A stretch of 62,149 nucleotides of DNA from a virus, in IMG/VR virus record IMGVR_UViG_3300020027_000007, positions 1 to 62,149 of that record. One strand, written 5' to 3'. The position numbers and the translations under genes are program-made. Positions 8,480 to 31,217 of this stretch are shown here, piece after piece (position 1 is the stretch's first letter; each line of letters begins with the position of its first letter). Under the pieces are notes generated by a model. The model saw only the letters and a program-made list of their open reading frames with translations, searched no databases and was not told the DNA's origin.

Positions 8480-8709
8480 TGCCCAAGCCAAGCACGGGGG
8501 ATCCTGACAGGAGAGCCATCAACTCTCACCTTTGGAAGCAGCACGAAGAACGAACAGGCAAAGGGGACAAGTTCGACCGCTTGGCATACCACGAAGAATT
8601 ACATGCCTCAGGCAACGACGGCTACGCTGGTGTTCCGCTTCACAGGCACGAGCCGGGCAATGAGGAGCGCATGGGTGAGGTAGTTCTACATGAGGGCGAG
8701 GGCACATGA
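8479..8709 (+). CDS. Hypothetical protein
   Basis: 76 aa, rich in His, Glu and Gly. It starts by TGATG overlap and its end overlaps the primase start by four bases. No family recognised; the His-rich middle may bind metal. Confidence 0.6.
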   Translation: MPKPSTGDPDRRAINSHLWKQHEERTGKGDKFDRLAYHEELHASGNDGYAGVPLHRHEPGNEERMGEVVLHEGEGT

Positions 8710-11579
8710 CGGCAGCAGCGGAGAGCTCGGGGTGGCGCAAAACCTTCGAGATGTTCCTGACTGGAGAGATGGGGGACAACCAGGAGCAGCGAGGGTACTG
8801 CCCAGTCCATGAGGATCCGCAGCTGAGCAAGACTCCATCAGCTTCGTACAACTTTGCCAAGGGCACCTTTTATTGCTTCGGAGGCTGCGGAGGTATGTCG
8901 TTCAGTAGGTTGCTGAACGCATGTCGTGAGGAGTGGCCAGAAGAGTTTCCGCGCAAGGACTCCGCCCCGGCCCCGGCCACCCGCAGTGTCCGTTCCATCT
9001 CCGACGCACCTTCGAAGCGTGGTGAAGGAGGGGTACCGCTGCCGAGCGACGAAGACGTGCGTGCATGGGTGGAGACCCTCCAGAAGATGCCCACAATGCT
9101 GGGTGTCATGAACAACAAACGAGGGTTGTCAACGGCAACCATCGAGAAGTTTGAAATTGGCTGGCACAAGGACCGCTTCACCATCCCGGTGCGGGACGCT
9201 GACGGTGTGCTTCAGAACGTGCGCCGGTACAAGCACAACGCCACCAAGGCTGCCGACAAGATGTTGAACTTGCAGGGTCATGGCGAGGCCCGCTTGTTCC
9301 TACCGTGGATGCTGAGCGAACCTGAAGTCGTCATTACCGAAGGTGAGCTCGACGCCATTATTGGTCAACACCACGGCCTCCCCACGATGAGTCACACTGC
9401 TGGTGCCAGCGTGTGGAAGCCTGCCTGGAATCCCTTGTTTCAAGACAAGGTCGTGTTCCTTTGCTACGACGTTGACGATGCCGGTACCAACGGTGCGTTG
9501 AAGGTGGCGGCAGGCGTCAGTCGTTATGCTAAGGCTGTCTACATCATCAAGCTTCCCCTTACGGTTAAGGGGTCTGACCTGACCAACTACTTCGTTGACC
9601 AGGGCTATATCGCAGAGGACTTCTACGCCTTGATGGACGAGGCGAGGATGTCTCCATATGGCAGCAAGGCAAAGAAAGACAAGCTGGATATCCAGCCCAA
9701 GAGGGTGACGTTGGAACATAGCTTGTCGGCAGAGCACAAGGGTGACCCGCTCGAGATTGTTACCACCGTGGCAGGGAAGATGCAGCCCCCTTACCTGCTG
9801 CCCCAGAAGGTGCGATACCTCTGCGACCAAAGCTTGAGCCAGGCGCAGTGTAGCAAGTGCCCGATGTCTAGCCTCGGGGGAGACATGGCGGAGCGCATTG
9901 CCAAAGACGATCCGTTCCTTTTGGAACTAATCGACAGCAGCAAGAGCGCTTCGGATGCCAGCTTGAAAGAACGCGTCAACATTACCAGTCGTTGCAAAGT
10001 GGTAGAGATAGAGATTGAAAAGGAATGGAACGTTGAAGAGCTCATTGTCCTTCCGTCAGTGGACAATCGTGATGAGCAAACGCAGACGCCAATTACGCGC
10101 CGGGTCTACAACGTTGGTGAGTTCGCTACTCCGGTCAACACCACCAGCAGGCTCGTTGGGTTCAATACCAGCGACCCGAGAAACAAACGAGCCGTCTTCC
10201 AGAGCTGGGAATGCGAGCAAACAAAAACCAACATCGACGTCTTTGAACTGACACCGGAACTGCGTAAGGCTCTCAAGGTTTTCCAGCCTGCCAAGGGTCA
10301 GCCGGTACTGAAGAAGATGGGTGACATTGCTCGCGACTTAGAGGCCAACATCACCAAGATTTACGGGCGTGTGCCACTGCACGTCGCGTACGACACGGTG
10401 TGGCATAGCGTCATGGATTTCAAGTTCAAAGGCGTTGTGTTGGGCAAGGGATGGCTTGAGCTGCTGGTGCTGGGCGACACCCGTACCGGCAAGAGCGAGG
10501 CGGCCCTACGGCTCTCAGACCATTACAACGCAGGGGTGTTGAAGAGCTGCGAGGGGGCAACGTTCGCTGGTCTAGTGGGCGGTGCAGAGTCCGTTGGTGG
10601 CAAGTCCTGGATGGTGAAGTGGGGCACCATTCCCCTCAACGACCGCAGGTTGGTCGTGCTTGATGAGGTGTCGGGTATTGCTGACAAGAACATCATGGAG
10701 CAGATGAGCTCAGTTCGCTCTAGTGGTCGTGCGCAAATCACCAAAATTGTCAGCCAGGAAACCAGCGCACGAACACGTCTCATATGGATTGGCAACCCAG
10801 TGGACGGCACCACCCTCCGACACATGAACGGGGCTATCGAGGGCATCCAGAAGCTGGTGAAGAACCCAGAGGACATTGCCCGCTTTGATATGGCAATGGC
10901 AGTGGCTAGCGATGAGGTTGACAGCGGCATCATCAACGCTACCAATCCACCTCACGTGGAGCACGTGTACACGAGCGAGCTGTGTAGTGCCCTTGTTTCG
11001 TGGGCTTGGAGTCGCAAGGTAGACCAGGTCACATGGAAGGACGGCACCGAGGACTACATCCTGCGGGCGGCCGAGGAACTGGGGGAGCGGTACGTTGCTG
11101 AGCCGCCCCTCATTCAGGTTGAAAATGCACGTGTGAAGTTGGCACGCATTGCTGTGGCCATTGCCGCTCGTGTGTTCAGCTGCGACAAGACCGGCAACCT
11201 AGTTGTCGTGGGCAACGAGCACGTTGACGCAGCCGTGCAGTTGCTGGACTCGTTGTACGGAACTGAGAGCTTTGGTTACCAGCAGCACAGCGTTCGCACC
11301 ATCAGGAACAGAGAGCGTGCCGAGGACAGCAAGCGGCAAGCGCGCATGTACTTGATGGGCGAGGAGAACGTGCTGTACACCCTGCTGCAATCTCGTGGAG
11401 ACATGTTCAAGCCAAGGGACTTCGAGGAATCTGGCAGCATGCACAAGGAGCAGGCGCAAGAGGCTGTTCGTCAACTGGGCCAGTGGAAAATGATCCGAAG
11501 AAGGAACAAGGGTTACTTGAGCATGGAGCCCGCCCTCATTGACATCCTGAGTGAACTGGAAGACAAATTCGAAGAATAG
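8706..11579 (+). CDS. Primase fused to MCM-like AAA+ helicase
   Basis: 957 aa. The N-terminus has a CHC2-like zinc site, CPVH near 32 and CFGGC near 58. A TOPRIM core follows: ITEGELDAI near 211 and CYDVDDAG near 253, as in DnaG primases. A middle region has a possible second zinc site (CDQ...CSKC, about 375-390). The C-terminal half is an AAA+ ATPase: Walker A LGDTRTGKS near 590, Walker B LVVLDEVSG near 648, then SARTRLIWIGNP and IARFDMAMAV near 724, the sensor and arginine-finger pattern of MCM helicases (compare SRFDL). It ends in a probable winged helix. One chain would unwind the fork and prime it. Most phages use a RecA-fold helicase domain here, so the MCM-like domain is unusual. Confidence 0.85.
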   Translation: MTAAAESSGWRKTFEMFLTGEMGDNQEQRGYCPVHEDPQLSKTPSASYNFAKGTFYCFGGCGGMSFSRLLNACREEWPEEFPRKDSAPAPATRSVRSISDAPSKRGEGGVPLPSDEDVRAWVETLQKMPTMLGVMNNKRGLSTATIEKFEIGWHKDRFTIPVRDADGVLQNVRRYKHNATKAADKMLNLQGHGEARLFLPWMLSEPEVVITEGELDAIIGQHHGLPTMSHTAGASVWKPAWNPLFQDKVVFLCYDVDDAGTNGALKVAAGVSRYAKAVYIIKLPLTVKGSDLTNYFVDQGYIAEDFYALMDEARMSPYGSKAKKDKLDIQPKRVTLEHSLSAEHKGDPLEIVTTVAGKMQPPYLLPQKVRYLCDQSLSQAQCSKCPMSSLGGDMAERIAKDDPFLLELIDSSKSASDASLKERVNITSRCKVVEIEIEKEWNVEELIVLPSVDNRDEQTQTPITRRVYNVGEFATPVNTTSRLVGFNTSDPRNKRAVFQSWECEQTKTNIDVFELTPELRKALKVFQPAKGQPVLKKMGDIARDLEANITKIYGRVPLHVAYDTVWHSVMDFKFKGVVLGKGWLELLVLGDTRTGKSEAALRLSDHYNAGVLKSCEGATFAGLVGGAESVGGKSWMVKWGTIPLNDRRLVVLDEVSGIADKNIMEQMSSVRSSGRAQITKIVSQETSARTRLIWIGNPVDGTTLRHMNGAIEGIQKLVKNPEDIARFDMAMAVASDEVDSGIINATNPPHVEHVYTSELCSALVSWAWSRKVDQVTWKDGTEDYILRAAEELGERYVAEPPLIQVENARVKLARIAVAIAARVFSCDKTGNLVVVGNEHVDAAVQLLDSLYGTESFGYQQHSVRTIRNRERAEDSKRQARMYLMGEENVLYTLLQSRGDMFKPRDFEESGSMHKEQAQEAVRQLGQWKMIRRRNKGYLSMEPALIDILSELEDKFEE

Positions 11580-11621: not shown

Positions 11622-11789
11622 ATGAAAAAGCTCGTAAAGGTACTGCGAGATTTAGTTGAGGAACTGGGCAACATTCACGGTATCTTAAACGACATCCGAA
11701 TTAGCGTTTCCTCGATGGCTGAAGACATTCAGGAGATGAAAAATTCCACCAACGCCATGGTTGATGTTTACCTGAAGGAGAACTTGTGA
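11622..11789 (+). CDS. Small helical protein, possible coiled coil
   Basis: 55 aa. The leader ACAAGGAGGGCACA directly precedes the ATG. Heptad-like spacing of Leu, Ile and Val (KKLVKVLRDLVEELGNIHG) predicts a coiled coil. Its TGA overlaps the GTG of the FAD-binding gene. Function unknown. Confidence 0.65.
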   Translation: MKKLVKVLRDLVEELGNIHGILNDIRISVSSMAEDIQEMKNSTNAMVDVYLKENL

Positions 11790-12589
11790 GAGTCCTTGTT
11801 CTGGGTTGCGGTCCGGCGGGTCTGATGGCCTGTCACGCAGCCGCACTGACCGGGCACGATGTCGTTGTCGTTAGCAAACGTCGCAAGTCTGAGATGTACG
11901 GGGCGCAGTACTTGCACGCTGCTATCCCCGAGGTCGACTGCGGCAAGCCACGGCTCATTGAGTACAAGCTTGACGGTACCGTTGACGGCTACCGTGCCAA
12001 GGTGTACGGGCCGGAAAGCCGTCGTGCCGTCAGCCCCGAGAGCTTGGAGGCCAACCACCAAGGCTGGAACATCCGCCGGGCTTACGACGACCTCTGGGAC
12101 ATGTACGGACAGTACGTTGTCGACATGGAGTTCAAGGCACCGGCGGACCTTCACCAGTTCCTGCACAACGGTGGCTACGGGCAAGAGTTGGTCATCTCCA
12201 GCCTCCCAGCTCCGTTGCTCTGCGCAACGGATCACTCGTTCATGGGCGAGGATATCTGGGCCATTGGCGACGCGCCGGAACGGGGTGTGTTCAACCCCAT
12301 TGCCGTGCCCGCTGAAACCGTTGTGTGCAACGGAGACCCCAACGTCAGTTGGTACCGCACGGCCAACGTGTTCGGCCGTTCTACGACCGAATGGCCTGGG
12401 AGGCGCAAGCCCCCAATAGAAGGGGTGGCCCGTGTGACCAAGCCGCTGAGCACCGATTGCGATTGTTGGCCCCTCATCCGTCGAGTCGGGCGGTACGGCC
12501 AATGGCAGAAGGGTGTGTTGAGCCACACGGCTTACCAGGAGACGGCTGAGTATCTCGGCGGTCAAGGCATTCAGGAGGCGTTGTTCTGA
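11786..12589 (+). CDS. FAD-dependent oxidoreductase
   Basis: 267 aa from a GTG overlapping the previous stop. The N-terminus VLVLGCGPAGLMACHAA is a classic dinucleotide-binding GxGxxG motif, followed by VVVVSKRRKS, the end of the second strand of a Rossmann fold. The middle contains a DIWAIGDAPE segment and the C-terminus RRVGRYGQWQKGVLSH. It is shorter than most flavoprotein oxidoreductases, so the substrate domain is small. It is coupled to an AsnB-type enzyme, a HAD phosphatase and a DUF1599 protein, suggesting one pathway. Substrate unknown. Confidence 0.75.
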   Translation: MRVLVLGCGPAGLMACHAAALTGHDVVVVSKRRKSEMYGAQYLHAAIPEVDCGKPRLIEYKLDGTVDGYRAKVYGPESRRAVSPESLEANHQGWNIRRAYDDLWDMYGQYVVDMEFKAPADLHQFLHNGGYGQELVISSLPAPLLCATDHSFMGEDIWAIGDAPERGVFNPIAVPAETVVCNGDPNVSWYRTANVFGRSTTEWPGRRKPPIEGVARVTKPLSTDCDCWPLIRRVGRYGQWQKGVLSHTAYQETAEYLGGQGIQEALF

Positions 12590-13473
12590 TGGGGGCTTCG
12601 GCTGGCTACATTGGCGAGATCATCCGCCGTCGTCTCATTCAACAGACCAAGGACTGCGAGAGCCCTGTCGGCATCGCTCTTAGCGGTGGGGTTGATTCTT
12701 GCAGCATCCTCGCGGCGATGTGCTTCAACGGGGTCCGACCGGTTGTGTTCTCGTACACCCCAGACAGCCACGAATCAACGGACTTCAAAATGGCCCGAGA
12801 GTGTGCCGGAGACCTTGGCCTGGAGTTCGTGCCGGTCTATTTTCCCATGAGCACCGCACAGCTTGAAGCCGGTGCCCGGGAGGTCGTCTCTTACGGCTAC
12901 AAGACCAAGTTGGAAGTCGAATGCCTTGTGCCGATGATGCACGTGCTAAGGGTGGCAGCTCGGGTCGGCGTGCACTGCCTCTACACTGGGGATCAAGCCG
13001 ACGGGTTCTTCATCAACAATAACTGGATGGCACGCAACTTCGACCGTGCACAAGGCATTCCCGGCCCTTTGCGTAGAGCCGTCAGCAAGGATGATGACCC
13101 GTGGCGTATTGACAAACTACGGGACATCTACTGGAATGAGGACCGTAGCTGCTCCGGTGCCCTTCAGTTCTTGGGCGGCACGGTCGGCGTGTCCGTTCAG
13201 GTGCCGTACCGAGACGAGGCCATTCGAGAAGCGTTCAAGGGCAGCCTCTGGACGGACATCAATGAGCCCCGCATCAAGGAGCCCATCCGCCTTGCGTTCA
13301 AGGACATTTTGAACGTGCGCATCCCGACGCGCCCGCTGCCTGTCAACCTACACAAGGGCGACAGCTTGTTCGCCGAAACGATGGGTCGCAAACTCATGGG
13401 TGCCGAGCATCTTCGGGGGCCATGGGCAACTACTACTGGCCTCTATTCCGCTATGGCCCGAGGCAGCATCTGA
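12589..13473 (+). CDS. Asparagine synthase-like PP-loop enzyme
   Basis: 294 aa. The PP-loop SGGVDS is near residue 29 (GIALSGGVDSCSILAAM) and is followed by FSYTPDSHESTDFKMARECA and YTGDQADGFF, matching the synthetase half of AsnB (SGGLDS, D-x-x-x-AR, SGEGSDE). The glutaminase domain is absent, so it would need free ammonia or another amine. PP-loop enzymes adenylate a carbonyl or carboxylate and replace the oxygen with nitrogen. Coupling to the flavoprotein and HAD genes suggests amide or amine formation on a nucleotide or small molecule. Confidence 0.82.
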   Translation: MGASAGYIGEIIRRRLIQQTKDCESPVGIALSGGVDSCSILAAMCFNGVRPVVFSYTPDSHESTDFKMARECAGDLGLEFVPVYFPMSTAQLEAGAREVVSYGYKTKLEVECLVPMMHVLRVAARVGVHCLYTGDQADGFFINNNWMARNFDRAQGIPGPLRRAVSKDDDPWRIDKLRDIYWNEDRSCSGALQFLGGTVGVSVQVPYRDEAIREAFKGSLWTDINEPRIKEPIRLAFKDILNVRIPTRPLPVNLHKGDSLFAETMGRKLMGAEHLRGPWATTTGLYSAMARGSI

Positions 13474-14129
13474 TGGGCTGGCTGCAAGAGGACAGCCCGA
13501 TTGTTGCCCTTGACTACGACGGCACCCTCGGTGTCTATCACTACCACTTCACGAACTTCGCCAGTGAGTGGGTTGGTCGTGCATTGCCCGGTGGGTACGA
13601 CGGCGGCAAGCCGTTCTATCAACACCTCGGCCTCAGCAAAGAGACGTACCGCAAGTGCAAGCTCGCCTACCGGCGCGGCGGCCTCAAGCGCAGCATGCCT
13701 GCGTACGGCGGAGCTGCGGAACTGACTCGGATAGTTCGGTTGCGCAAGGCAAGGGTCATCATCTGCACGACGCGTCCGTTCCTCAGCCTCGAGGACATCG
13801 AGGGAGACACGGTGCACAATGCCAGGCGGCATGGCATCCAGTTCGACTACATGATTAGCGGCGAGAAGAAGTACCACGAGCTGAAGAAGCTGGTGGACCC
13901 AGAGCGCATCGTGATGGTGCTGGAAGACCAGGACGACATGCTTGCCCAGGCCACCCGCCTCTCCCTCCCCGCAGTGCGCATCCTGCGAGCACACAACGAC
14001 GCTTCCATTCTAGAAGTGGAACACGAAGTAGACAGCCTCCAGGCCGCTACTGAGCTAGCCTTGCAACGTATGGCCATTCGGCGCAGTGAACGATATCTAG
14101 CTAGTGAACGCGAGAGGAAACGCGCATGA
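13473..14129 (+). CDS. HAD-superfamily phosphatase-like protein
   Basis: 218 aa from the ATG overlapping the previous TGA. HAD motifs are visible: LDYDGTLG (motif I, near 13), IICTTRPF (motif II, near 97), a lysine in GEKKYHELKK (motif III), and VLEDQDDM (motif IV, near 148). A basic helix ends the protein. It could remove phosphate from a nucleotide or pathway intermediate; a polynucleotide 3'-phosphatase role is also possible. It is fourth in the oxidoreductase operon. Confidence 0.75.
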   Translation: MGWLQEDSPIVALDYDGTLGVYHYHFTNFASEWVGRALPGGYDGGKPFYQHLGLSKETYRKCKLAYRRGGLKRSMPAYGGAAELTRIVRLRKARVIICTTRPFLSLEDIEGDTVHNARRHGIQFDYMISGEKKYHELKKLVDPERIVMVLEDQDDMLAQATRLSLPAVRILRAHNDASILEVEHEVDSLQAATELALQRMAIRRSERYLASERERKRA

Positions 14130-14536
14130 TCGGATACGAGGAGAAGCCAGTCGGCAAGCAGGGCCGCGAGGTTGAGGTGTTGTTCGACCCCAACATCACC
14201 CGGCCGGTGCTCGTGCTGTACATGCCTGCTGCAACAGAGGGCACGGTTCAGACCGATGGTATGTGGTCCATCGTTGCCTTCTACAACCAGTGCGTCAATC
14301 TCGTGTACACCAAGAACATCACGTACCGAGACGCCTGGCGTAGGCAGGGGTACATGGGAAACACGGCTCGCATTATGAGCAAGGTGGAGCGGCTCAAGGC
14401 CATGTTGTGGCAGGACCACCAGCTCGAAGACGCCAACGAGCCGGTATCAGACACGTTGCTTGACCTCGCCAACGTGACCGCGTTCGCTGCCATCAACCAA
14501 AGCGAGGGCAACAAGTGGGGAGTGCGGCACCCATGA
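14126..14536 (+). CDS. DUF1599-like nucleotide-modification-associated protein
   Basis: 136 aa; the start overlaps the HAD stop. The C-terminal two thirds (YRDAWRRQGYMGNTARIMSK, then ERLKAMLWQD and SDTLLDLANVTAFAAI) resemble DUF1599, which Pfam calls nucleotide modification associated domain 1. The family is helical and occurs in phages near nucleotide enzymes. Its presence here supports a nucleotide-level role for the neighbouring enzymes. Its activity is not known. Confidence 0.65.
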   Translation: MIGYEEKPVGKQGREVEVLFDPNITRPVLVLYMPAATEGTVQTDGMWSIVAFYNQCVNLVYTKNITYRDAWRRQGYMGNTARIMSKVERLKAMLWQDHQLEDANEPVSDTLLDLANVTAFAAINQSEGNKWGVRHP

Positions 14537-14983: not shown

Positions 14984-15257
14984 CGTTCGGGTCAACGTGT
15001 ACGAAGATGGCATTGTGGCCGTTGAGTTTGACCACGCATGCATCGTTCGGGACAAGCGTCGTATGTTGAACGACGAGGAGTTCTGGGATGACGTGTTCGG
15101 GATGCCTGACCCCTTCGCCGTAGAGGAACCGGACATGGACTGCATTGGCATCGACAGCCCTACGCCGTGCCCGGAATGCGGAGCTACCGGTGCTTGTGGC
15201 AACGACAGTGAAGGCCGCCCCATGATTCATGTAGTACAGGAGGATGATGAAGGCTAA
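14976..15257 (+). CDS. Small zinc-ribbon protein
   Basis: 93 aa, start coupled to the previous stop. The N-terminus is beta-rich and acidic; the C-terminus has CPECGATGAC, a half zinc ribbon. The end overlaps the polymerase start by 14 bases. It may be a small polymerase accessory factor, by position only. Confidence 0.65.
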   Translation: MADVRVNVYEDGIVAVEFDHACIVRDKRRMLNDEEFWDDVFGMPDPFAVEEPDMDCIGIDSPTPCPECGATGACGNDSEGRPMIHVVQEDDEG

Positions 15258-18200
15258 GACAGTCAGCCAGTTCCACTCGCTGCACCATCACTCGACGTAC
15301 TCGTACATGGACGGGTACGGCACCCCCGAGCAGCACGCGAAGGCAGCGGCTGACTTGGGGATGCCTTCGATGGCCTGGACAGAGCACGGTAACGTCAGCA
15401 GCCATGTAAAGGGCGAGCGAGCAGCCCTTGCCCTAGGCATCAAACCCATCTTTGGGTGCGAGCTGTACACCGGCCCGGTGGGTGAAGATGCCAGCCGGTA
15501 CAAGTGGCATCTCACGGTGCTAGCCATGAACGAAACGGGGCTCCGCAACCTTTACGCTATGGTTTCGAAGGGATGGAAGGACGGCTTCTACTATGAGCCT
15601 ACGGTTAGTGGTGAAATGCTTGCGGACTACTCGGAGGGGCTTATTGTCCTTTCAGGTTGCTCCGGCTCGAAAATGGCATGTGACCTTGTCGGTGGCAAAG
15701 GAGTTGAACCCCACGAGGTTGACTATGGGGCTGCTCTGGAGACTGCCCTCAGGTTCCGGGAGCTTTTTGGAGATCGTTTCTATCTCGAAGCGCAAGCCTT
15801 TCCCGAGCTTGAACGTACGCGGAATATCAACAAGGCTTGGGCGCAAATGTCGAAAGAGACAGGCATCCCGCTTGTCGTAACTGGCGACGTGCATTACCCG
15901 AAGCCGGGCGACAACGAGATGCAGGTCATGCTGCACGCCATTGACCGTGGCGGTCGCAACAACACAGTCGAGAAGCAGGCGCAGGGTTGGGGCTACGATA
16001 TCCAGCTCACATCCTTTAGCGACAAGGTGATTTGGCAGAAGTTGAAGGCCACCGGCCTCACCGGCAAGCAGGCTGAGTCGGCAGTGCGTATGACTGGAGA
16101 GATTGCCGGTCGCATCAATGTCACTTTGCCAAAGCTGCAGGAGCTGGAGTTCCCGCTGCCAGAGCACACTCCGAAGCAGGAGTTCTTCCGCACGATGGTG
16201 CGCGAGGGATGGAAGTACCGGGGCTTTGACAACCTGCCCAAGAAGCTGCGCAAGGAGTATTCGAAGCGGCTTAAGTACGAACTGAACCTCATCGAGCTCA
16301 AGAACTTTGAGGACTATTTCATGGTGGTAGCGGACCTCGTTGTTCGCGCCAAGAACAAGGGCATTGCGGTCGGCCCTGCCCGGGGCTCCGCCGCAGCCTC
16401 GTTGGTGTGCTACTGCATGCGCATTACCGAGGTCAATCCGATGCTGTTCCCCAACCTGCTGTTCGAACGGTTCATTGATATCAACCGGCACGACTTACCG
16501 GATATTGACTTGGACTTTGACGACGAGCGCCGCTGGGAAGTGCGCGCCGACCTCGTGGACATGTACGGCGAAGACCGCGTGGGCAACATCGGAACGTTCA
16601 CCAACTACAAAGGTAAGAATAGCCTTGACGATGTAGCGCGAGTCAACAACGTTCCCAAGTACGCGGTAGATGCCATCAAAGAGAAGTTGATTGAGCGCAG
16701 CTCCGGAGACCTGCGTGGCAGCAGTACCATCGAGGACACCATCGCCATGTTCCCCGACGTTGAGAAGGTGTTTCAGGAGTTCCCCGTGTTGTACGAAGCG
16801 CAACGCCTAGAGGGCAACCTCAAGGGCTTTAGCGTGCACGCAGCGGGGCTCGTGGTGGCCAACCAGACCCTTACCGACTCGGTGGCGGTGTATGCCCGGA
16901 TCGACAGTAAGACAGGGAAAGAAGGCAACGTCCTCAGCATCGACAAGCACGATGCGGAGTACATCAACGCGTTGAAAATTGACGTGTTGGGCTTGACCAC
17001 GATGGGTGTTATCAGCAACTGTCTCAAGATGATTGGCATGTCGCTGCAGGAGCTGTACGACATCCCGCTGGACCAAGAGAACGTGTTCGATGGGTTCAAA
17101 CGCAACGAAGTCGTCGGCCTGTTTCAGTTTGACGGCAGGGCAATGCGCTCGGTCAATCGTGAGGTGAAGCCGGACAACTTCGCAGAGGTGTGCGACATCA
17201 ACGCACTTGCCCGCCCTGGCCCTTTGCACTCCGGTGCCGCTGCCGAGTACATCATGGTGAAGCACGGTAAGAAGAAGGCCGTCATCTTGCACCCGGTCGT
17301 CGGGGAGATTACCGCCCACACGAACAGCCAGATCGTTTACCAGGAACAGATTCTCCAGGTCGTTCGGAGGCTTGGAAACTTCAGCTGGGAAGAGGCTGCC
17401 CAGATTCGTAAGCTCATCTCTAAGAAGCAAGGTGAGCAGGCGTTCAACCGCATGATGGGTAAGTTCGTGAAGGGGGCCATGGACAACGACATGTCCGAGG
17501 TCAATGCCATCAAGGTTTGGAAGCAGCTCGTGACCGCCGGTGCTTATGCGTTCAACGCCGCGCACTGTGTCTCGTACGGGATGCTTGCCTACTGGACCAT
17601 GTGGCTCAAGCAGAACTTCCCGCTGGAGTTCTACTGTGCGGCTCTGCAGAAGTACGACCCGAAGACCAAGGGCTTCGACTTGCTGAAAGAGGCGCTGGAC
17701 AAGGGCATTGACATCTTGCCGCCGGACCCATACAAGAGCGAGCGGTCGTGGACGTACGACAAGGAAGCCAACAGCTTGCGTGCTGGCTTTGAGCAGATCA
17801 GCGGCATCGGTGAGAAGACAGCGAACGCCATGCTGGCTTACCGCGAAGACCGGCTGCAAGAAGAGTCGGTAAGCGGAGTCGAGCCGGACGTTAGCTGGGA
17901 CGACTACCTTGCCGTCAAGGGCATCGGACCTGCCACGATGGATAAGGTCCGCGCCTTCTGCCTGGACCCCGATCCCTTCGGCGTGTACCGGCTGGGGCAG
18001 GCTCTCAAGAAGGTGCGCCGGTACATTTGGGAGTACGGCGACATGGACGGCATTCCCTTGCCTACAAGCAAGAGCGAGGACATCCCGTACGAACCCATCA
18101 AGGGCGAGCACGTATGGGTTGGCGTAGTGCGGGACCGCAACCTCAAGGACCTGTACGAGCTGCACCGCAGCCGCACGGGAGATGAACTGGACCCGGCTAC

Positions 18201-18447
18201 GGTCAAGGAGCCAGAGCACATCAACTGGTGCGTCATCGTGGGAGAAGACGAGACCGGACCACTGACTATGACCGTGCACCGCATGCGCGGTCTCTACGAG
18301 AGGTACAAGGAAAAGATTTGGAGCATTGACCCTAAGCGCGATGTCATCGTTGTCCGAGGCTACAAAGCGCAGCAGTACCGGAGGGCAATCTACGTGCAGG
18401 AATTGCATGTGCTGAACCCAGACACGCTCCCAGATTTCCAGGACTGA
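15244..18447 (+). CDS. dnaE: DnaE-type DNA polymerase III alpha subunit
   Basis: 1067 aa. The N-terminal PHP domain has FHSLHHHSTYS and EHGN. The C-family polymerase core is visible: GPARGSAAASLV near 377 and LPDIDLDFDD near 419, carrying catalytic aspartates. Later parts include ALARPGPLHSGAA, helix-hairpin-helix segments (ISGIGEKTANAM, VKGIGPATMDKVRA) and an OB-fold-like tail. Length is close to bacterial DnaE. Tandem ATGs at 15244 and 15247 lie right after AGGAGG, so the exact start is uncertain. It is the replicative polymerase of the phage. Confidence 0.95.
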   Translation: MMKAKTVSQFHSLHHHSTYSYMDGYGTPEQHAKAAADLGMPSMAWTEHGNVSSHVKGERAALALGIKPIFGCELYTGPVGEDASRYKWHLTVLAMNETGLRNLYAMVSKGWKDGFYYEPTVSGEMLADYSEGLIVLSGCSGSKMACDLVGGKGVEPHEVDYGAALETALRFRELFGDRFYLEAQAFPELERTRNINKAWAQMSKETGIPLVVTGDVHYPKPGDNEMQVMLHAIDRGGRNNTVEKQAQGWGYDIQLTSFSDKVIWQKLKATGLTGKQAESAVRMTGEIAGRINVTLPKLQELEFPLPEHTPKQEFFRTMVREGWKYRGFDNLPKKLRKEYSKRLKYELNLIELKNFEDYFMVVADLVVRAKNKGIAVGPARGSAAASLVCYCMRITEVNPMLFPNLLFERFIDINRHDLPDIDLDFDDERRWEVRADLVDMYGEDRVGNIGTFTNYKGKNSLDDVARVNNVPKYAVDAIKEKLIERSSGDLRGSSTIEDTIAMFPDVEKVFQEFPVLYEAQRLEGNLKGFSVHAAGLVVANQTLTDSVAVYARIDSKTGKEGNVLSIDKHDAEYINALKIDVLGLTTMGVISNCLKMIGMSLQELYDIPLDQENVFDGFKRNEVVGLFQFDGRAMRSVNREVKPDNFAEVCDINALARPGPLHSGAAAEYIMVKHGKKKAVILHPVVGEITAHTNSQIVYQEQILQVVRRLGNFSWEEAAQIRKLISKKQGEQAFNRMMGKFVKGAMDNDMSEVNAIKVWKQLVTAGAYAFNAAHCVSYGMLAYWTMWLKQNFPLEFYCAALQKYDPKTKGFDLLKEALDKGIDILPPDPYKSERSWTYDKEANSLRAGFEQISGIGEKTANAMLAYREDRLQEESVSGVEPDVSWDDYLAVKGIGPATMDKVRAFCLDPDPFGVYRLGQALKKVRRYIWEYGDMDGIPLPTSKSEDIPYEPIKGEHVWVGVVRDRNLKDLYELHRSRTGDELDPATVKEPEHINWCVIVGEDETGPLTMTVHRMRGLYERYKEKIWSIDPKRDVIVVRGYKAQQYRRAIYVQELHVLNPDTLPDFQD

Positions 18448-18458
18448 AAGGCACCAAC

Positions 18459-19106
18459 ATGCAGGGCATCGAAGAGTATTATGAGAAGTGGAACAAGGAC
18501 ATCGAGTTTGCAAACGAGGTCCTATTCGACCAGTTCGGCGGTGGAGAGAACGCCTTCGTCATTGACGAGGTAGCTCTGTTCTTCCGGGACCGAACGCAGG
18601 CCATGCAGTGGATTCTTGACCAGGTTGGCAAGGACGGAGTCACACTGTTCAACTACGCCCAAGACGAGGTACACACGCACCCGTTCAACACGGACTACGA
18701 CGTGCACTACTACTTCCTCTCGACGCCGTTCAAGTACCGAGTAGAAGCGATGGCCTTGGGCAACGGTCTGAGCCCGCTGCACGAGAGCTTGCGTCCGTAC
18801 GCCAGCAACGAAGCTCACGACCCCGTTGGTCCGAGGCCTACGGTGCACTACAGCTTCAAATGTCAGGACGCTCCTACGTATCACCGGGTGACCGATTGGC
18901 TCGGGAAGATGGAGTTCGGACACGTGCAGACCTGCCGCTCCACGTACGGGCTGTTCTCCTACTGGAGCATGAGCGAGAACGTAGACCCCAATGGCACCAT
19001 GGACGTCTACCTCAAGCCGCGCGTTAACACCCGAGACGAGCGTGTCCCCGTTGACCTCGGCCCACGCCCCGACGGTGGCTATCTCAGCGCGAAGGCGGGC
19101 AAGTGA
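18459..19106 (+). CDS. Hypothetical protein
   Basis: 215 aa, starting 11 bases after the polymerase with AAAGGC upstream. Rich in aromatic residues and His; the segment DVHYYFLSTPFKYRVEAMAL and a later TVHYSFKCQDAPTYHRVTDWL suggest two similar beta-alpha halves. No family recognised. It lies between the polymerase and the SDR, and its stop overlaps the SDR GTG. Confidence 0.7.
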   Translation: MQGIEEYYEKWNKDIEFANEVLFDQFGGGENAFVIDEVALFFRDRTQAMQWILDQVGKDGVTLFNYAQDEVHTHPFNTDYDVHYYFLSTPFKYRVEAMALGNGLSPLHESLRPYASNEAHDPVGPRPTVHYSFKCQDAPTYHRVTDWLGKMEFGHVQTCRSTYGLFSYWSMSENVDPNGTMDVYLKPRVNTRDERVPVDLGPRPDGGYLSAKAGK

Positions 19107-19780
19107 GCGTCTTAGTGGTTGGCTCCTCCCCCGACTCCCTCGGCGCCGCAGTCCGAGACGCCTTGCAAGCAAGGGCTCTTCGAGTCGTGACGGCTGGCAT
19201 CACCGGAGAGGAGCGCTACCTGGATGTCACGGACCCGGACAATTGCAAGGACGTCATACTGCGTACTCGACCTAAGCAAATCGTAGTGACGGCTGGCATC
19301 AACCATGGCTTCACTCTGCGGGCGGAGGGTTTGCGGGGGGCGATGCACGAACACATGGCCGTCAACTATATCGGAGTCATCACGGTGCTGACGGCATGGC
19401 TTGAAGCACGGGCTGAATACTCCGAGACTTCGAACGGTCAGTTCGTTGCCATCAGCTCCAACTCGGCGCACATCGCACGACGCGGTTCGATGGCGTACTG
19501 CGCAAGCAAGGCGGCGCTCAGTATGGCGCTACGCTGTGCGGCCCGAGAAACGGCCGAAGAGGGGTTGCTGGTGTACGGCTATGAACCGGGTCTCTTGGCC
19601 GGTACGCCCATGACGCAGCAAGCCGCGCAGGACTTTCCTGGTCCGCTGCACCGCATGCCGGGGGTGGGCCAACTCGGCTTGTCTACAAGGGATTTCGCCC
19701 GCACCATCGCCACGAACTTGCAGCACCCGAACCAAGCTCTGCACGGTGCAATGCTCCGTCTCGACGCTGGCGAGCAGTAA
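19103..19780 (+). CDS. Short-chain dehydrogenase/reductase
   Basis: 225 aa from a GTG. The cofactor loop is VVGSSPDSLGAAV, then VVTAGINHG replaces the usual NNAG, and the active-site pattern is S...YCASK (NSAHIARRGSMAYCASKAAL). The second strand LRVVTAGITGEE lacks a clear acidic or basic selector, so NAD versus NADP cannot be told. SDRs are rare in phages. It may reduce or oxidise a nucleotide-sugar or pathway intermediate together with the flavoprotein at 11786; this is inference. Confidence 0.82.
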   Translation: MSVLVVGSSPDSLGAAVRDALQARALRVVTAGITGEERYLDVTDPDNCKDVILRTRPKQIVVTAGINHGFTLRAEGLRGAMHEHMAVNYIGVITVLTAWLEARAEYSETSNGQFVAISSNSAHIARRGSMAYCASKAALSMALRCAARETAEEGLLVYGYEPGLLAGTPMTQQAAQDFPGPLHRMPGVGQLGLSTRDFARTIATNLQHPNQALHGAMLRLDAGEQ

Positions 19781-19859: not shown

Positions 19860-20324
19860 ATGAAGAGTTACACGCTGATGCAGGAGAAACATCTCTTGGA
19901 AGACCTTGAGGACCGCAAGGTCATTCGGGGTAACAACACCGACGAAGAGCCAAGGCAGGGTCGCATCGTTGCCGTGAACAACAGCGGCCACATCGGCCGC
20001 GTCTGGGTGTTGTGGTCCGGCGAGCTCGACCCGGCCTCACACCGACCCAACGAGCTGATGCTGCTTGACAAGAACGACGCGTTCCGCAAGAAGCTCTCGT
20101 GGCACGGCAAGCGCTTTGGTGAGCTGGATGCCTTTGTGCAGCAGGCGAAGCGCGAAGGTGTGCTGCCCGACGCCAAGCTGAATGACAACGAGCCGGGTAC
20201 GCACGTGCACGTCAACGTGCCGTTGCCGCTGGTGCCTACTGAGCCGGGCAAGCACGACCACGACTTCACCGAGAAGTGCATGCCGCTGTGTCCGGCGTTT
20301 CGCTTAGACCCCGGGGATAGCTGA
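19860..20324 (+). CDS. Hypothetical protein
   Basis: 154 aa. The leader GACAAGGAGGGCAATTGACA sets the ATG at 19860. The N-terminal half contains an SH3-like beta segment (GRIVAVNNSGHIGRVWVLWS); the end has a His/Cys-rich patch (GKHDHDFTEKCMPLC). No family recognised. TGATG overlap couples it to the DUF4406 gene. Confidence 0.7.
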   Translation: MKSYTLMQEKHLLEDLEDRKVIRGNNTDEEPRQGRIVAVNNSGHIGRVWVLWSGELDPASHRPNELMLLDKNDAFRKKLSWHGKRFGELDAFVQQAKREGVLPDAKLNDNEPGTHVHVNVPLPLVPTEPGKHDHDFTEKCMPLCPAFRLDPGDS

Positions 20325-20758
20325 TGGGCAAGGTGTACATCGCGGGGCCCATGTTCGGGTACCCCGACAAGAACAAGGCGTCGTTTCAGTTCTGCCAGGA
20401 CATGCTGGAGAACCTTCACGACGTGCCGCCGTCTCTCATCGCCAACCCGGTAAGCATTCCGGCGTACGAACACGGCGAGGAAGCTTGCCCCGGTGGGCAG
20501 CGCAAGGTCAGCGAGTTCGACGAGCACGGTGCGGGTTGCTACTACCGAACCGACATGTTCGAGCTCCTGCAGTGTGAGCACGCCATCTTCCTGCCTGGTT
20601 GGGAGAACAGCGTCGGGTCACGACTGGAGATGCAGGTCGTTACGGCTTGCGGAATCCAATTGCTGTTCATGGACATGAAGACGGGCGAGGTGTACAACAC
20701 GCTAGCCGAGACGTTGCGTCTCGACTGGTGGCGTCCGTCCGACGAGCAGCCGCAGTAG
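20324..20758 (+). CDS. DUF4406 / nucleoside deoxyribosyltransferase-like protein
   Basis: 144 aa. The start VYIAGPMFGYPDKNK and the later LLQCEHAIFLPGWENSVGSRLEM match DUF4406, which has the fold of nucleoside 2-deoxyribosyltransferases; the glutamate in SRLEMQ sits where the catalytic Glu of that fold is found. Related enzymes break or exchange N-glycosidic bonds of nucleotides. It may salvage or alter nucleotides alongside ThyX and dCMP deaminase. Confidence 0.78.
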   Translation: MGKVYIAGPMFGYPDKNKASFQFCQDMLENLHDVPPSLIANPVSIPAYEHGEEACPGGQRKVSEFDEHGAGCYYRTDMFELLQCEHAIFLPGWENSVGSRLEMQVVTACGIQLLFMDMKTGEVYNTLAETLRLDWWRPSDEQPQ

Positions 20759-21698: not shown

Positions 21699-22277
21699 AT
21701 GAGCAATCTCATCGACCACGCAAAGCGCGAGCTGGAGCTGGTTGGGCAGTACGAAGAAGACCCCGCGTTCGCGGTCTCGGTACTGGCTGCCGTGTCCGCG
21801 TTCGCTGCGTACCCAGGGCATTCGGGCGGTAGCGCGTTCGCGGGCATCAGCATGATCAGCGACCTGTTGCAGTTCAAGAACCTCAGCCCGCTGACCAACG
21901 ACCCGGCCGAGTGGGTGCACCACGGACCTGACACGTGGGGGCAGCCGGGCGGCATCTGGCAGAACGTGCGCAACGGCAGCGCGTTCAGCGAGGACGGCGG
22001 CCTGACGTACACGCTGGTTGACGAGGACAAGAGGGCTGAGCCGTACCGCACTCGCATCACCCACGACAACAGCGGGCAGCTGTTGTCTAAGGCAAGGATG
22101 CTGCCGGTCGAAAACCACGACGACTCCATGAACGCTGCGATGCCCTACGAGGGAGACACGCAGGACGCCATCGTCGGCATCCGCTGTGCGTGCGGAAAGA
22201 TCATCCGAGAAGATGAGTTTGTCGCGCACTGCAACGCCAACAGCCCGGGTAAGCACTTCGAGAAGCGGGGCGAGTGA
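21699..22277 (+). CDS. Conserved actinophage hypothetical protein
   Basis: 192 aa with GTAGGAG upstream. It begins MSNLIDHAKRELELVG and contains YPGHSGGSAFAGISMISDLL, a layout familiar from many actinobacterial phages but of unknown function. The C-terminus has CACGK...VAHCN, a small Cys/His zinc-type motif. First gene of the ThyX transcription unit. Confidence 0.75.
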   Translation: MSNLIDHAKRELELVGQYEEDPAFAVSVLAAVSAFAAYPGHSGGSAFAGISMISDLLQFKNLSPLTNDPAEWVHHGPDTWGQPGGIWQNVRNGSAFSEDGGLTYTLVDEDKRAEPYRTRITHDNSGQLLSKARMLPVENHDDSMNAAMPYEGDTQDAIVGIRCACGKIIREDEFVAHCNANSPGKHFEKRGE

Positions 22278-22417
22278 TGGACCACGATTGGGCAGAGATC
22301 GGCAGGCAGTACGAGGTACTGCGCACCGGTACCGCAACCCGCATCGATGGCCCCGGGTACAAGATTTATCGGGTCGGAGAGATCATCCGCATCGACGTCT
22401 CGAAGAACGGAAACTGA
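22277..22417 (+). CDS. Small hypothetical protein
   Basis: 46 aa, filling the gap exactly: its ATG overlaps the previous TGA and its TGA overlaps the ThyX ATG. Sequence is mainly beta-type (YKIYRVGEIIRIDVS). Function unknown. Confidence 0.7.
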   Translation: MDHDWAEIGRQYEVLRTGTATRIDGPGYKIYRVGEIIRIDVSKNGN

Positions 22418-23484
22418 TGGCCGAAGGCAACGAGTTGCAGCGGTGGGCTGACAAAGCGATGTTCCAGAGCGAGGCGATGCCGTTCAACGTCAACGAGACG
22501 GGGCCGCGCGTGCACCTGATTGGCATGACGGCTGACCCGCTGGGCCACATCGCGGCAGCGGCCAAGATGTATAAGGGCGAGGTAGTGCGCAGCCTCTCGG
22601 ACGTCACGTTCGCCGAGCGGGGTTCGTACCTGCGCGAAATCATGGCGACCAAGCTCAAGGCACCGTTTGAGTTCGTCAAGTTCCATTTCATGATTGAGGG
22701 GGTGACTCGTAGCTTCACGCATCAGATGGTGCGGCAGCGCACAGCGGCGTACGCGCAAGAGTCGCTTCGCTTTGCTGTGAAGGAGAACCTAGATGAGGAA
22801 GTGCTGTTGCCTCCCTCCCTCGCTGGCCTGCCCGCAGACCACCCTCAACGCGTCTTGTGGCGGCAGGGGCTCAACCGCCTCGACGACGTGTACAACGCTC
22901 TCATTGCCGACGGGGTGCCTGCTGAAGACGCACGCGGCCTGCTGCCGCACAACGTCACGACTCGGTTGCACTACACCACCGACCTGCGGGCATTGCAGGA
23001 CCATGCTGGCAACCGGTTGTGCACCCAAGCTCAGTTCGAATGGCGCAGTGTCTTCGTGCGCATTGTCGATGCCATTCGCAACTACAAGCCACACGCGGCC
23101 ATCATCAAGTCCACGACGACCAACCTTCCCAAGGATGTGTTGGACGCCATGGCCTTCCTTGACTCTAACGAGTCCTGGCAGTACGAGGCCATTGCAGACT
23201 TGTTCCGACCCGTCTGCTACCTCACCGGCAAGTGCGAGTTTCAGGCGGAGTTCGACCGGCCCTGTTCCATCCGTAGTCGGGTGCAGGCCAACCACGACAT
23301 CGGGCGACCGAGCAAGGATTGGGACACCGAGCACGACACGGTTGACCCTCTGACCATTGTGGCTGGTGTCGGGCCGCAATCCGTTATTCGAGAAGAGTTT
23401 GCCGAGGGCAACATTCATCGCCCGGTTTTCATCGGCGCCATCCAGCCGCACGAGTGGCTGACAGACCCCGGTGCAGCCCGGTGA
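22417..23484 (+). CDS. thyX: FAD-dependent thymidylate synthase
   Basis: 355 aa from the ATG in TGATGGCCGAAGGCAACG. The ThyX signature appears as RQRTAAYAQESLRF (about 106-119, compare RHRxxSxNEESxRY), preceded by FVKFHFMIEGVTRSFTHQMV. ThyX makes dTMP from dUMP using FAD and methylenetetrahydrofolate. The protein is longer than the usual 230-270 aa, with an inserted segment around 120-160 and a C-terminal extension. The signature departs from the textbook RHR, so activity is likely but not certain. Confidence 0.88.
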   Translation: MAEGNELQRWADKAMFQSEAMPFNVNETGPRVHLIGMTADPLGHIAAAAKMYKGEVVRSLSDVTFAERGSYLREIMATKLKAPFEFVKFHFMIEGVTRSFTHQMVRQRTAAYAQESLRFAVKENLDEEVLLPPSLAGLPADHPQRVLWRQGLNRLDDVYNALIADGVPAEDARGLLPHNVTTRLHYTTDLRALQDHAGNRLCTQAQFEWRSVFVRIVDAIRNYKPHAAIIKSTTTNLPKDVLDAMAFLDSNESWQYEAIADLFRPVCYLTGKCEFQAEFDRPCSIRSRVQANHDIGRPSKDWDTEHDTVDPLTIVAGVGPQSVIREEFAEGNIHRPVFIGAIQPHEWLTDPGAAR

Positions 23485-30563: not shown

Positions 30564-30796
30564 TGCCGTACTGGCTGACGAGTCGCGACGTGTACGAGGA
30601 GAACGATGACCTTGTACTCGTCGCGCACGTTAGACCAACGAACGACGGCTCGCACATAGCCGACAGATACGGCCAGTGCTGGTGCGTACTGCGCAAAGAA
30701 CTCCGGGTGTGGCCCCAGGGGCGGCACTACCGCAAAACCGTTCTATACATACATCTCTACGACGGGGACAACGATGAGCATCGTCAAGGCATCTGA
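30563..30796 (+). CDS. Small hypothetical protein
   Basis: 77 aa, TAATG overlap with the previous gene. Aromatic and His-rich (GRHYRKTVLYIHLYDGD); no family recognised. It overlaps the deaminase start by 23 bases. Confidence 0.62.
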   Translation: MPYWLTSRDVYEENDDLVLVAHVRPTNDGSHIADRYGQCWCVLRKELRVWPQGRHYRKTVLYIHLYDGDNDEHRQGI

Positions 30797-31217
30797 CGAC
30801 CTGAACACGGTAGTCGTGCGCATCCTGCGTGACGCCACCCTCCGCTCCTCCTGCCGCAGGCGACAGGTCGGTGCCGCTCTATTCGATGCCCATGGCAACC
30901 TTCTTTCGGTGGGATGGAACAATGAACGAGACGATGCCCACGGTGCCACCCGCAACTGTTCGCACGGTGAGTGTCCTCGCGGGATGGTTGCCTACAGCAC
31001 CGTTCCGGCAGACGCTCCGTACGGCGATTGCATCGCTCAGCATGCTGAGATGATGGCTCTGGAACTAGCCCACCATCACTTCAAGCACATGACCGAGGCG
31101 GAGAAGGAACGGGACCTGCGAACGCTGCTAATGTTCGTTACACACCGTCCTTGCCACGAGTGCACTCCAGTATTGGTTGCCCTTGGCATCAATGTGACTT
31201 ACTTGGAGGAACTGTGA
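30774..31217 (+). CDS. Deoxycytidylate deaminase
   Basis: 147 aa. The zinc-deaminase motifs are HAEMMALE (HxE, near 91) and RPCHECTPVL (PCxxC, near 126). An N-terminal basic segment (CRRRQVGAALFDAHGNLLS) matches dCMP deaminases, and a CSHGEC insertion resembles the second zinc site of ComEB-type enzymes. It converts dCMP to dUMP, the substrate of the phage ThyX. Confidence 0.88.
   Translation: MSIVKASDDLNTVVVRILRDATLRSSCRRRQVGAALFDAHGNLLSVGWNNERDDAHGATRNCSHGECPRGMVAYSTVPADAPYGDCIAQHAEMMALELAHHHFKHMTEAEKERDLRTLLMFVTHRPCHECTPVLVALGINVTYLEEL

Follow-up and report, generated by a model that had tools for sequence, protein, structure and literature searches.

The window analysed here, a virus record of IMG/VR that is 62,149 bases long, is actinobacteriophage-like by its replication genes, which find their matches in Streptomyces, Mycobacterium, Microbacterium, Gordonia, and Arthrobacter phages. 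In the interval from the primase gene (8706-11579), its upstream flank, to the DnaE gene lie four open reading frames, all on the + strand: a flavoprotein-like oxidoreductase (OXR; 11786..12589), a PP-loop AsnB-like ligase (12589..13473), a HAD phosphatase (13473..14129), and a DUF1599/NMAD1-like helical protein (14126..14536). Each stop overlaps the next start, reading TTCTGATGGGG between OXR and the PP-loop gene, CATCTGATGGGC between the PP-loop and HAD genes, and GCATGATC between HAD and DUF1599. We confirmed the four genes and their translational coupling. An earlier note on this DNA had described four stop-to-start genes between primase and polymerase and proposed that they form a nucleotide or DNA modification pathway; the reading frames and overlaps were located, and its individual domain calls for the four proteins were right.

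OXR has 267 amino acids and was assigned by its motifs and by its match to PHROG 8720 (7.5e-94). The dinucleotide-binding motif GCGPAGLMA, picked out in the earlier note, does coincide with a Rossmann-type FAD_binding_2 match, at 21.3 bits, barely above the cut-off and covering residues 3-34 only. GxGPxG and GRYG are invariant, and GAQYLH and GRYGxWxKGVL are conserved. With Foldseek, a structure model (pLDDT 79, from six sequences) retrieved UDP-galactopyranose mutase (UGM), VioD, and D-amino-acid oxidase (DAAO) at E ~1e-6 and TM-scores up to about 0.6; by this model, OXR seems to resemble these enzymes at the level of the fold only. Family searches of OXR gave no match that fixes its reaction, and searches of solved structures by sequence returned nothing useful for OXR or HAD.

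The PP-loop protein (294 amino acids) matches PF00733 (Asn_synthase, E=5.5e-11). The match covers the synthetase domain only, and the protein itself begins about 30 residues ahead of SGGVDS; the N-terminal class II glutaminase domain is absent, as had been read from the letters. In a pairwise comparison, the protein is 25% identical over 252 columns (E=2e-13) to CmoY of Synechococcus phage S-B43, the enzyme that ligates glycine to 5-carboxymethylcytosine in DNA (PMC12783734). Across the aligned window-type and Cmo-type ligases, the SGGVDS-type loop does not vary, nor does the lysine K230 of the C-terminal half.

For the HAD gene, an upstream start at 13422 is the less likely, its extra 17 codons looking like an over-extended open reading frame. 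The start is most likely 13473 (MGWLQ...), because the closest relative of the window (L005) starts at the same MGWLQ, and this ATG overlaps the PP-loop stop. Pfam HAD models did not match the window protein itself. The HAD identity read from DYDGT nevertheless holds, since the catalytic-type residues D31, D33, T116/T117, K150, and D169 (numbered from the long start) are invariant in 12/12 homologues; the set is complete, with the DxD nucleophile pair, the motif II T, the motif III K, and the acidic motif IV. The DUF1599 protein scores 20.3 bits (E=7e-4) against PF07659, below the gathering cut-off of 25, and the same model matches 4/19 aligned family proteins (best 1.6e-6). A tblastn of the window protein against phage records gave no match, so the wider spread of DUF1599 described below rests on single-linkage clustering and alignment. 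A fold search with its model was uninformative as to a MazG-like fold.

Downstream, also on the + strand, DnaE-type DNA polymerase III alpha (15244..18447), a conserved neighbour of the four genes, is followed by g18459 (18459..19106), a conserved protein of the window's clade. We considered g18459 as a VOC/glyoxalase, which is plausible by eye and unsupported by profile comparison. Next come an SDR (FabG-like short-chain dehydrogenase; 19103..19780) with a YCASK active-site motif and a DUF4406 protein (20324..20758), nucleoside 2-deoxyribosyltransferase-like by PHROGs, which is possibly a nucleotide hydrolase and presumably associated with the cassette. Just upstream of ThyX, at 21699-22277, the window encodes Tad3, a type I Thoeris inhibitor (PF25185, E=1.8e-29). 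ThyX itself (22411..23484) scores 90.5 bits against TIGR02170, above the NCBIfam cut-off of 87.9, and may simply make dTMP. The canonical ThyX signature is R-H-R; that of the window, at 22717, reads RQR, and R-[QTS]-R replaces R-H-R in every cassette phage examined (the window, L002, L003, L010, L012-L014, L017, L018, L045, L096, and L112-L117). A dCMP deaminase-like protein (30774..31217) could supply dUMP. The SDR, DUF4406, ThyX, and dCMP deaminase, which the earlier note saw as possible suppliers or modifiers of the substrate, are thus all present, the last some 16 kb from the cassette.

The co-occurrence search that had been proposed as a check was run, and homologues of OXR, PP-loop, HAD, and DUF1599 do stand together in other phages. 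OXR occurs in 120 actinobacteriophage records from Gordonia, Microbacterium, Mycobacterium, Streptomyces, Arthrobacter, and Nocardia phages, and an IMG/VR alignment search with it confirmed 243 stretches, from which 80 loci were kept. The usual order beside OXR is HAD, DUF1599-like, often SDR, and then DnaE and ThyX; in CoolCookie, OXR abuts ThyX directly. SDR and ThyX are members of the same conserved gene set. When families were clustered among 93 sequences using a simple gene caller, OXR was found in 86, HAD in 78, DUF1599-like proteins in 68, and SDR in 38. The synteny among actinophages is in part shared descent of the replication region. However, HAD was found in 77 phage records and related DnaE in 416, and the HAD counts nest within those of OXR (Mycobacterium 26/26, Streptomyces 9/9, Arthrobacter 2/2, Nocardia 1/1; a comparison of genus counts, not of record lists), which suggests that the two genes are retained or lost as a pair, over and above what replisome descent accounts for. 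The locus represents one form of a conserved cassette that is wider and more modular than four genes. Our literature search found no description of the OXR/HAD/DUF1599 gene set.

Some OXR cassettes have a small SAM methyltransferase as an alternative partner (L002 7459-7989, a Methyltransf_11 protein; L015 9157-9879; L016 7873-8475). In Microbacterium phage RikSengupta (L003), an annotated glycosyltransferase at 11707-12783, between DnaE and ThyX, is a possible tailoring enzyme.

OXR is the constant part of this cassette and the PP-loop gene is an add-on. A single-protein PP-loop query of viral contigs gave no match, and a search of genome contigs found no relatives; an alignment query found the gene in L104, L105/L106, L107, L108, and L109, making six phages with the window, all of them matched by CmoY in tblastn. 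The gene lies within the OXR-HAD-DUF1599 cassette in 6/6, with the order OXR-PP-loop-HAD-DUF1599 in five and the PP-loop gene last in L109. The closest relative, L005, has OXR and HAD directly joined (63% identity for OXR and about 81-82% for DnaE), and on the DnaE tree the patchy PP-loop distribution takes at least four changes. The proposal of the earlier note therefore stands in outline, nucleotide or DNA modification being the best reading, but not in its details: the four genes do not form one fixed pathway, since the PP-loop gene is optional, with the nearest relative and most of the others lacking it.

Searches for CmoX and PF00145 were empty in the window and five relatives, with the positive control L110 matched. 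CmoA likewise had no match in the window or its PP-loop relatives, some of whose records are fragments, and the controls L019 and L110 matched. True Cmo partners are carried by L110, a distant PP-loop match, and by the Erwinia jumbo phage L019. In L019 (5165-6858), the 'putative methyltransferase' is a CmoA homologue (30%) and the 'asparagine synthetase' a CmoY homologue (34%). From these comparisons, the best reading of the PP-loop enzyme is an amide ligase whose carboxylate substrate differs from that of CmoY and is plausibly made by the neighbouring oxidoreductases.

Three PP-loop phages encode UDG-like genes between cassette and DnaE (L107 10842-11468, L108 10957-11598, L109 8603-9442); the L107 protein belongs to the uracil-DNA glycosylase family (PF03167, E=9e-30), and the other two were assigned by eye. 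Dcd-like (dCTP-deaminase-like) genes were also seen by eye in the same interval of L107 (11478-11987) and L108 (11465-12094).

A similar gene set is found in gammaproteobacterial phages. The window SDR has homologues in Wifcevirus and Carpasinavirus; as a query it matched these and Serratia phages, which carry around DnaE a flavoprotein, an R-T-R ThyX, a HAD-MazG-like fusion protein, an SDR, and a glyoxalase-like (VOC) protein. Their MazG-like and VOC proteins match proteins encoded next to OXR in some actinophages (47% identity with 99.8% probability, and 35% identity with 99.7% probability, respectively). The link between the HADs of the two phage groups, at 83.5% probability in the comparison, is probable. 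That between the flavoproteins (72% probability over 31 columns confined to the C-terminal motif, which reads GRFATWRNILLDDV in the gammaproteobacterial phages) is motif-level only, consisting of the Rossmann start and the C-terminal GRxxxW. The window DUF1599 protein did not match the MazG-like domain, nor g18459 the VOC counterpart.

The gammaproteobacterial flavoprotein was found in 359 records, and the HAD-MazG query matched 370, mostly Pbunavirus-type Pseudomonas phages. The core of the set is present in Pbunavirus, with E217 and JG024 having flavoprotein, ThyX, and HAD-MazG beside DnaE; no Pseudomonas phage was among the SDR or VOC matches. The 'polynucleotide kinase/phosphorylase' annotation of the protein at L113 8054-8926 and its Pbunavirus homologues looks wrong: Pfam finds no kinase domain, and these proteins seem to join a HAD_PNKP phosphatase to a MazG-like domain.

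Phages with the related set have restriction phenotypes. Wifcevirus was insensitive to all tested RM systems except EcoP1_I and has no known protection mechanism (PMC11990801). Virion DNA of the Pbunavirus JG024 was left uncut by ScaI, NdeI, and BsaI and was cut by XbaI; the authors suggested methylation (PMC10913387). Three common DNA methylase families had no match in JG024, ManiWeber, or the window; the JG024 resistance may come from host methylation or another methylase family. The co-occurrence of gene set and restriction resistance in Wifcevirus and JG024 is an association, not proof.

Marker genes of the M6-type, CmoX-type, and QueC-type pathways were searched for and not found. The 5-hmdU DNA kinase (PF18723) had no match in the window, JG024, ManiWeber, or Helpful, with the control M6 matched, and the M6 modification genes had no significant match in the window. 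For the 7-deazaguanine pathway, searched through QueC (PF06508), the window and four relatives gave no match and the controls did. The PF12851 dioxygenase (TET/JBP) gave no match, but its control search also matched nowhere.

The reading we favour, at a little short of an even chance, is that the region is a conserved replisome-linked deoxynucleotide-modification cassette, to which a CmoY-type ligase here adds the making of an amide-bearing, restriction-hindering base. We infer the chemistry, the substrate, and the anti-restriction role from the gene content as follows. The dCMP deaminase and the non-canonical ThyX would supply dTMP or a 5-substituted dUMP, the substrate probably being a pyrimidine deoxynucleotide. 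The SDR and the flavoprotein would oxidise a carbon of this or a related nucleotide, and the HAD phosphatase and DUF1599/MazG-like protein would take off a phosphate or deplete the normal nucleotide that competes. DnaE would then incorporate the product, or the product might be finished on DNA. In the window and its five relatives, the CmoY-type ligase would adenylate the carboxylate made by the pathway and couple it to an amino acid or to ammonia as the amine, and the resulting amide-bearing base would hinder restriction.

Ordinary nucleotide-pool metabolism is the main competitor, although we consider it unlikely. Under it, the cassette would boost dTTP and clear unwanted nucleotides around ThyX while OXR regenerates or reduces a cofactor of flavin or nucleotide type, and no modified base would be made. 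That ThyX passes the curated thyX cut-off and is directly abutted by OXR in CoolCookie suits this explanation, as do the pool-sanitising types of protein at hand (HAD, DUF1599/MazG-like, DUF4406, dCMP deaminase, and the UDG and dCTP-deaminase-like proteins of relatives). Yet it fits poorly with an added amide ligase, an SDR, and a glyoxalase-like protein, and with the unexplained restriction resistance of phages carrying the related set. The product could also be a nucleotide-derived small molecule, a counter-defence metabolite or decoy, rather than a DNA base. Free nucleotides suit HAD and DUF1599-type enzymes, and with its Tad3-like Thoeris inhibitor the phage probably faces nucleotide-signalling defences; but the cassette is constantly linked to primase and polymerase genes, the phenotypes that have been published concern DNA restriction, and a PADLOC defence-system search had no match, all of which makes this quite improbable.

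Two further explanations concern the ligase. It might be unrelated cargo that sits in the operon by chance, as the clean OXR-HAD junction of L005 and the patchy distribution on the DnaE tree would allow. Against this, six diverged phages always hold it in the cassette, TGATGG couples it at both ends in the window, and its catalytic-type residues are conserved, so that we regard chance as improbable. At the other extreme, an enzyme acting exactly as CmoY, on 5-carboxymethylcytosine in DNA, would account for the PP-loop homology but is set against the empty CmoX, PF00145, and CmoA searches in the window and relatives, and we give it hardly any credence.

The modification cassette with its added amide ligase is thus preferred, and a broader version can be put forward more tentatively. 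It is conceivable, although we would not expect it on balance, that an undescribed base-modification pathway (non-canonical ThyX, flavoprotein, HAD, MazG/DUF1599-like protein, and often SDR) shields actinobacteriophages, Wifcevirus, and Pbunavirus from restriction, and that the amide ligase of the window's clade adds a new amide-bearing base without carboxy-SAM. If true, this would name the missing genome-protection mechanism of Wifcevirus and offer an explanation of the odd restriction behaviour of JG024, a member of a genus much used in phage therapy. It would also mean that CmoY-type amide ligases act outside the carboxy-SAM pathway.

Among known systems, the CmoA-CmoX-CmoY pathway also has a short ligase of AsnB type with no glutaminase domain, to which the window PP-loop protein is 25% identical over the ligase domain; in the window, however, no Cx-SAM synthase or C5-carboxymethyltransferase was detected, and the ligase gene belongs to a flavoprotein/HAD/DUF1599 operon next to the replisome. 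Asparagine synthetase B and beta-lactam synthetase have a homologous ATP-pyrophosphatase (PP-loop) half, whereas the window ligase lacks their N-terminal glutaminase domain and has 294 amino acids only. The 5-hmdU-derived thymidine hypermodification of Pseudomonas phage M6 type is similar in placing modular tailoring enzymes beside replication and thymidylate genes, and differs in its 5-hmdU DNA kinase, which was not found in the window and tested relatives. Finally, although the replication-region set of Wifcevirus, Carpasinavirus, and Myosmarvirus has a HAD-MazG-like fusion, a larger flavoprotein (about 315-330 amino acids), a VOC protein, and no PP-loop ligase that we saw, it has in common with the window a GR[YF]xxW flavoprotein, a non-canonical ThyX, a HAD phosphatase, an SDR, and DnaE.
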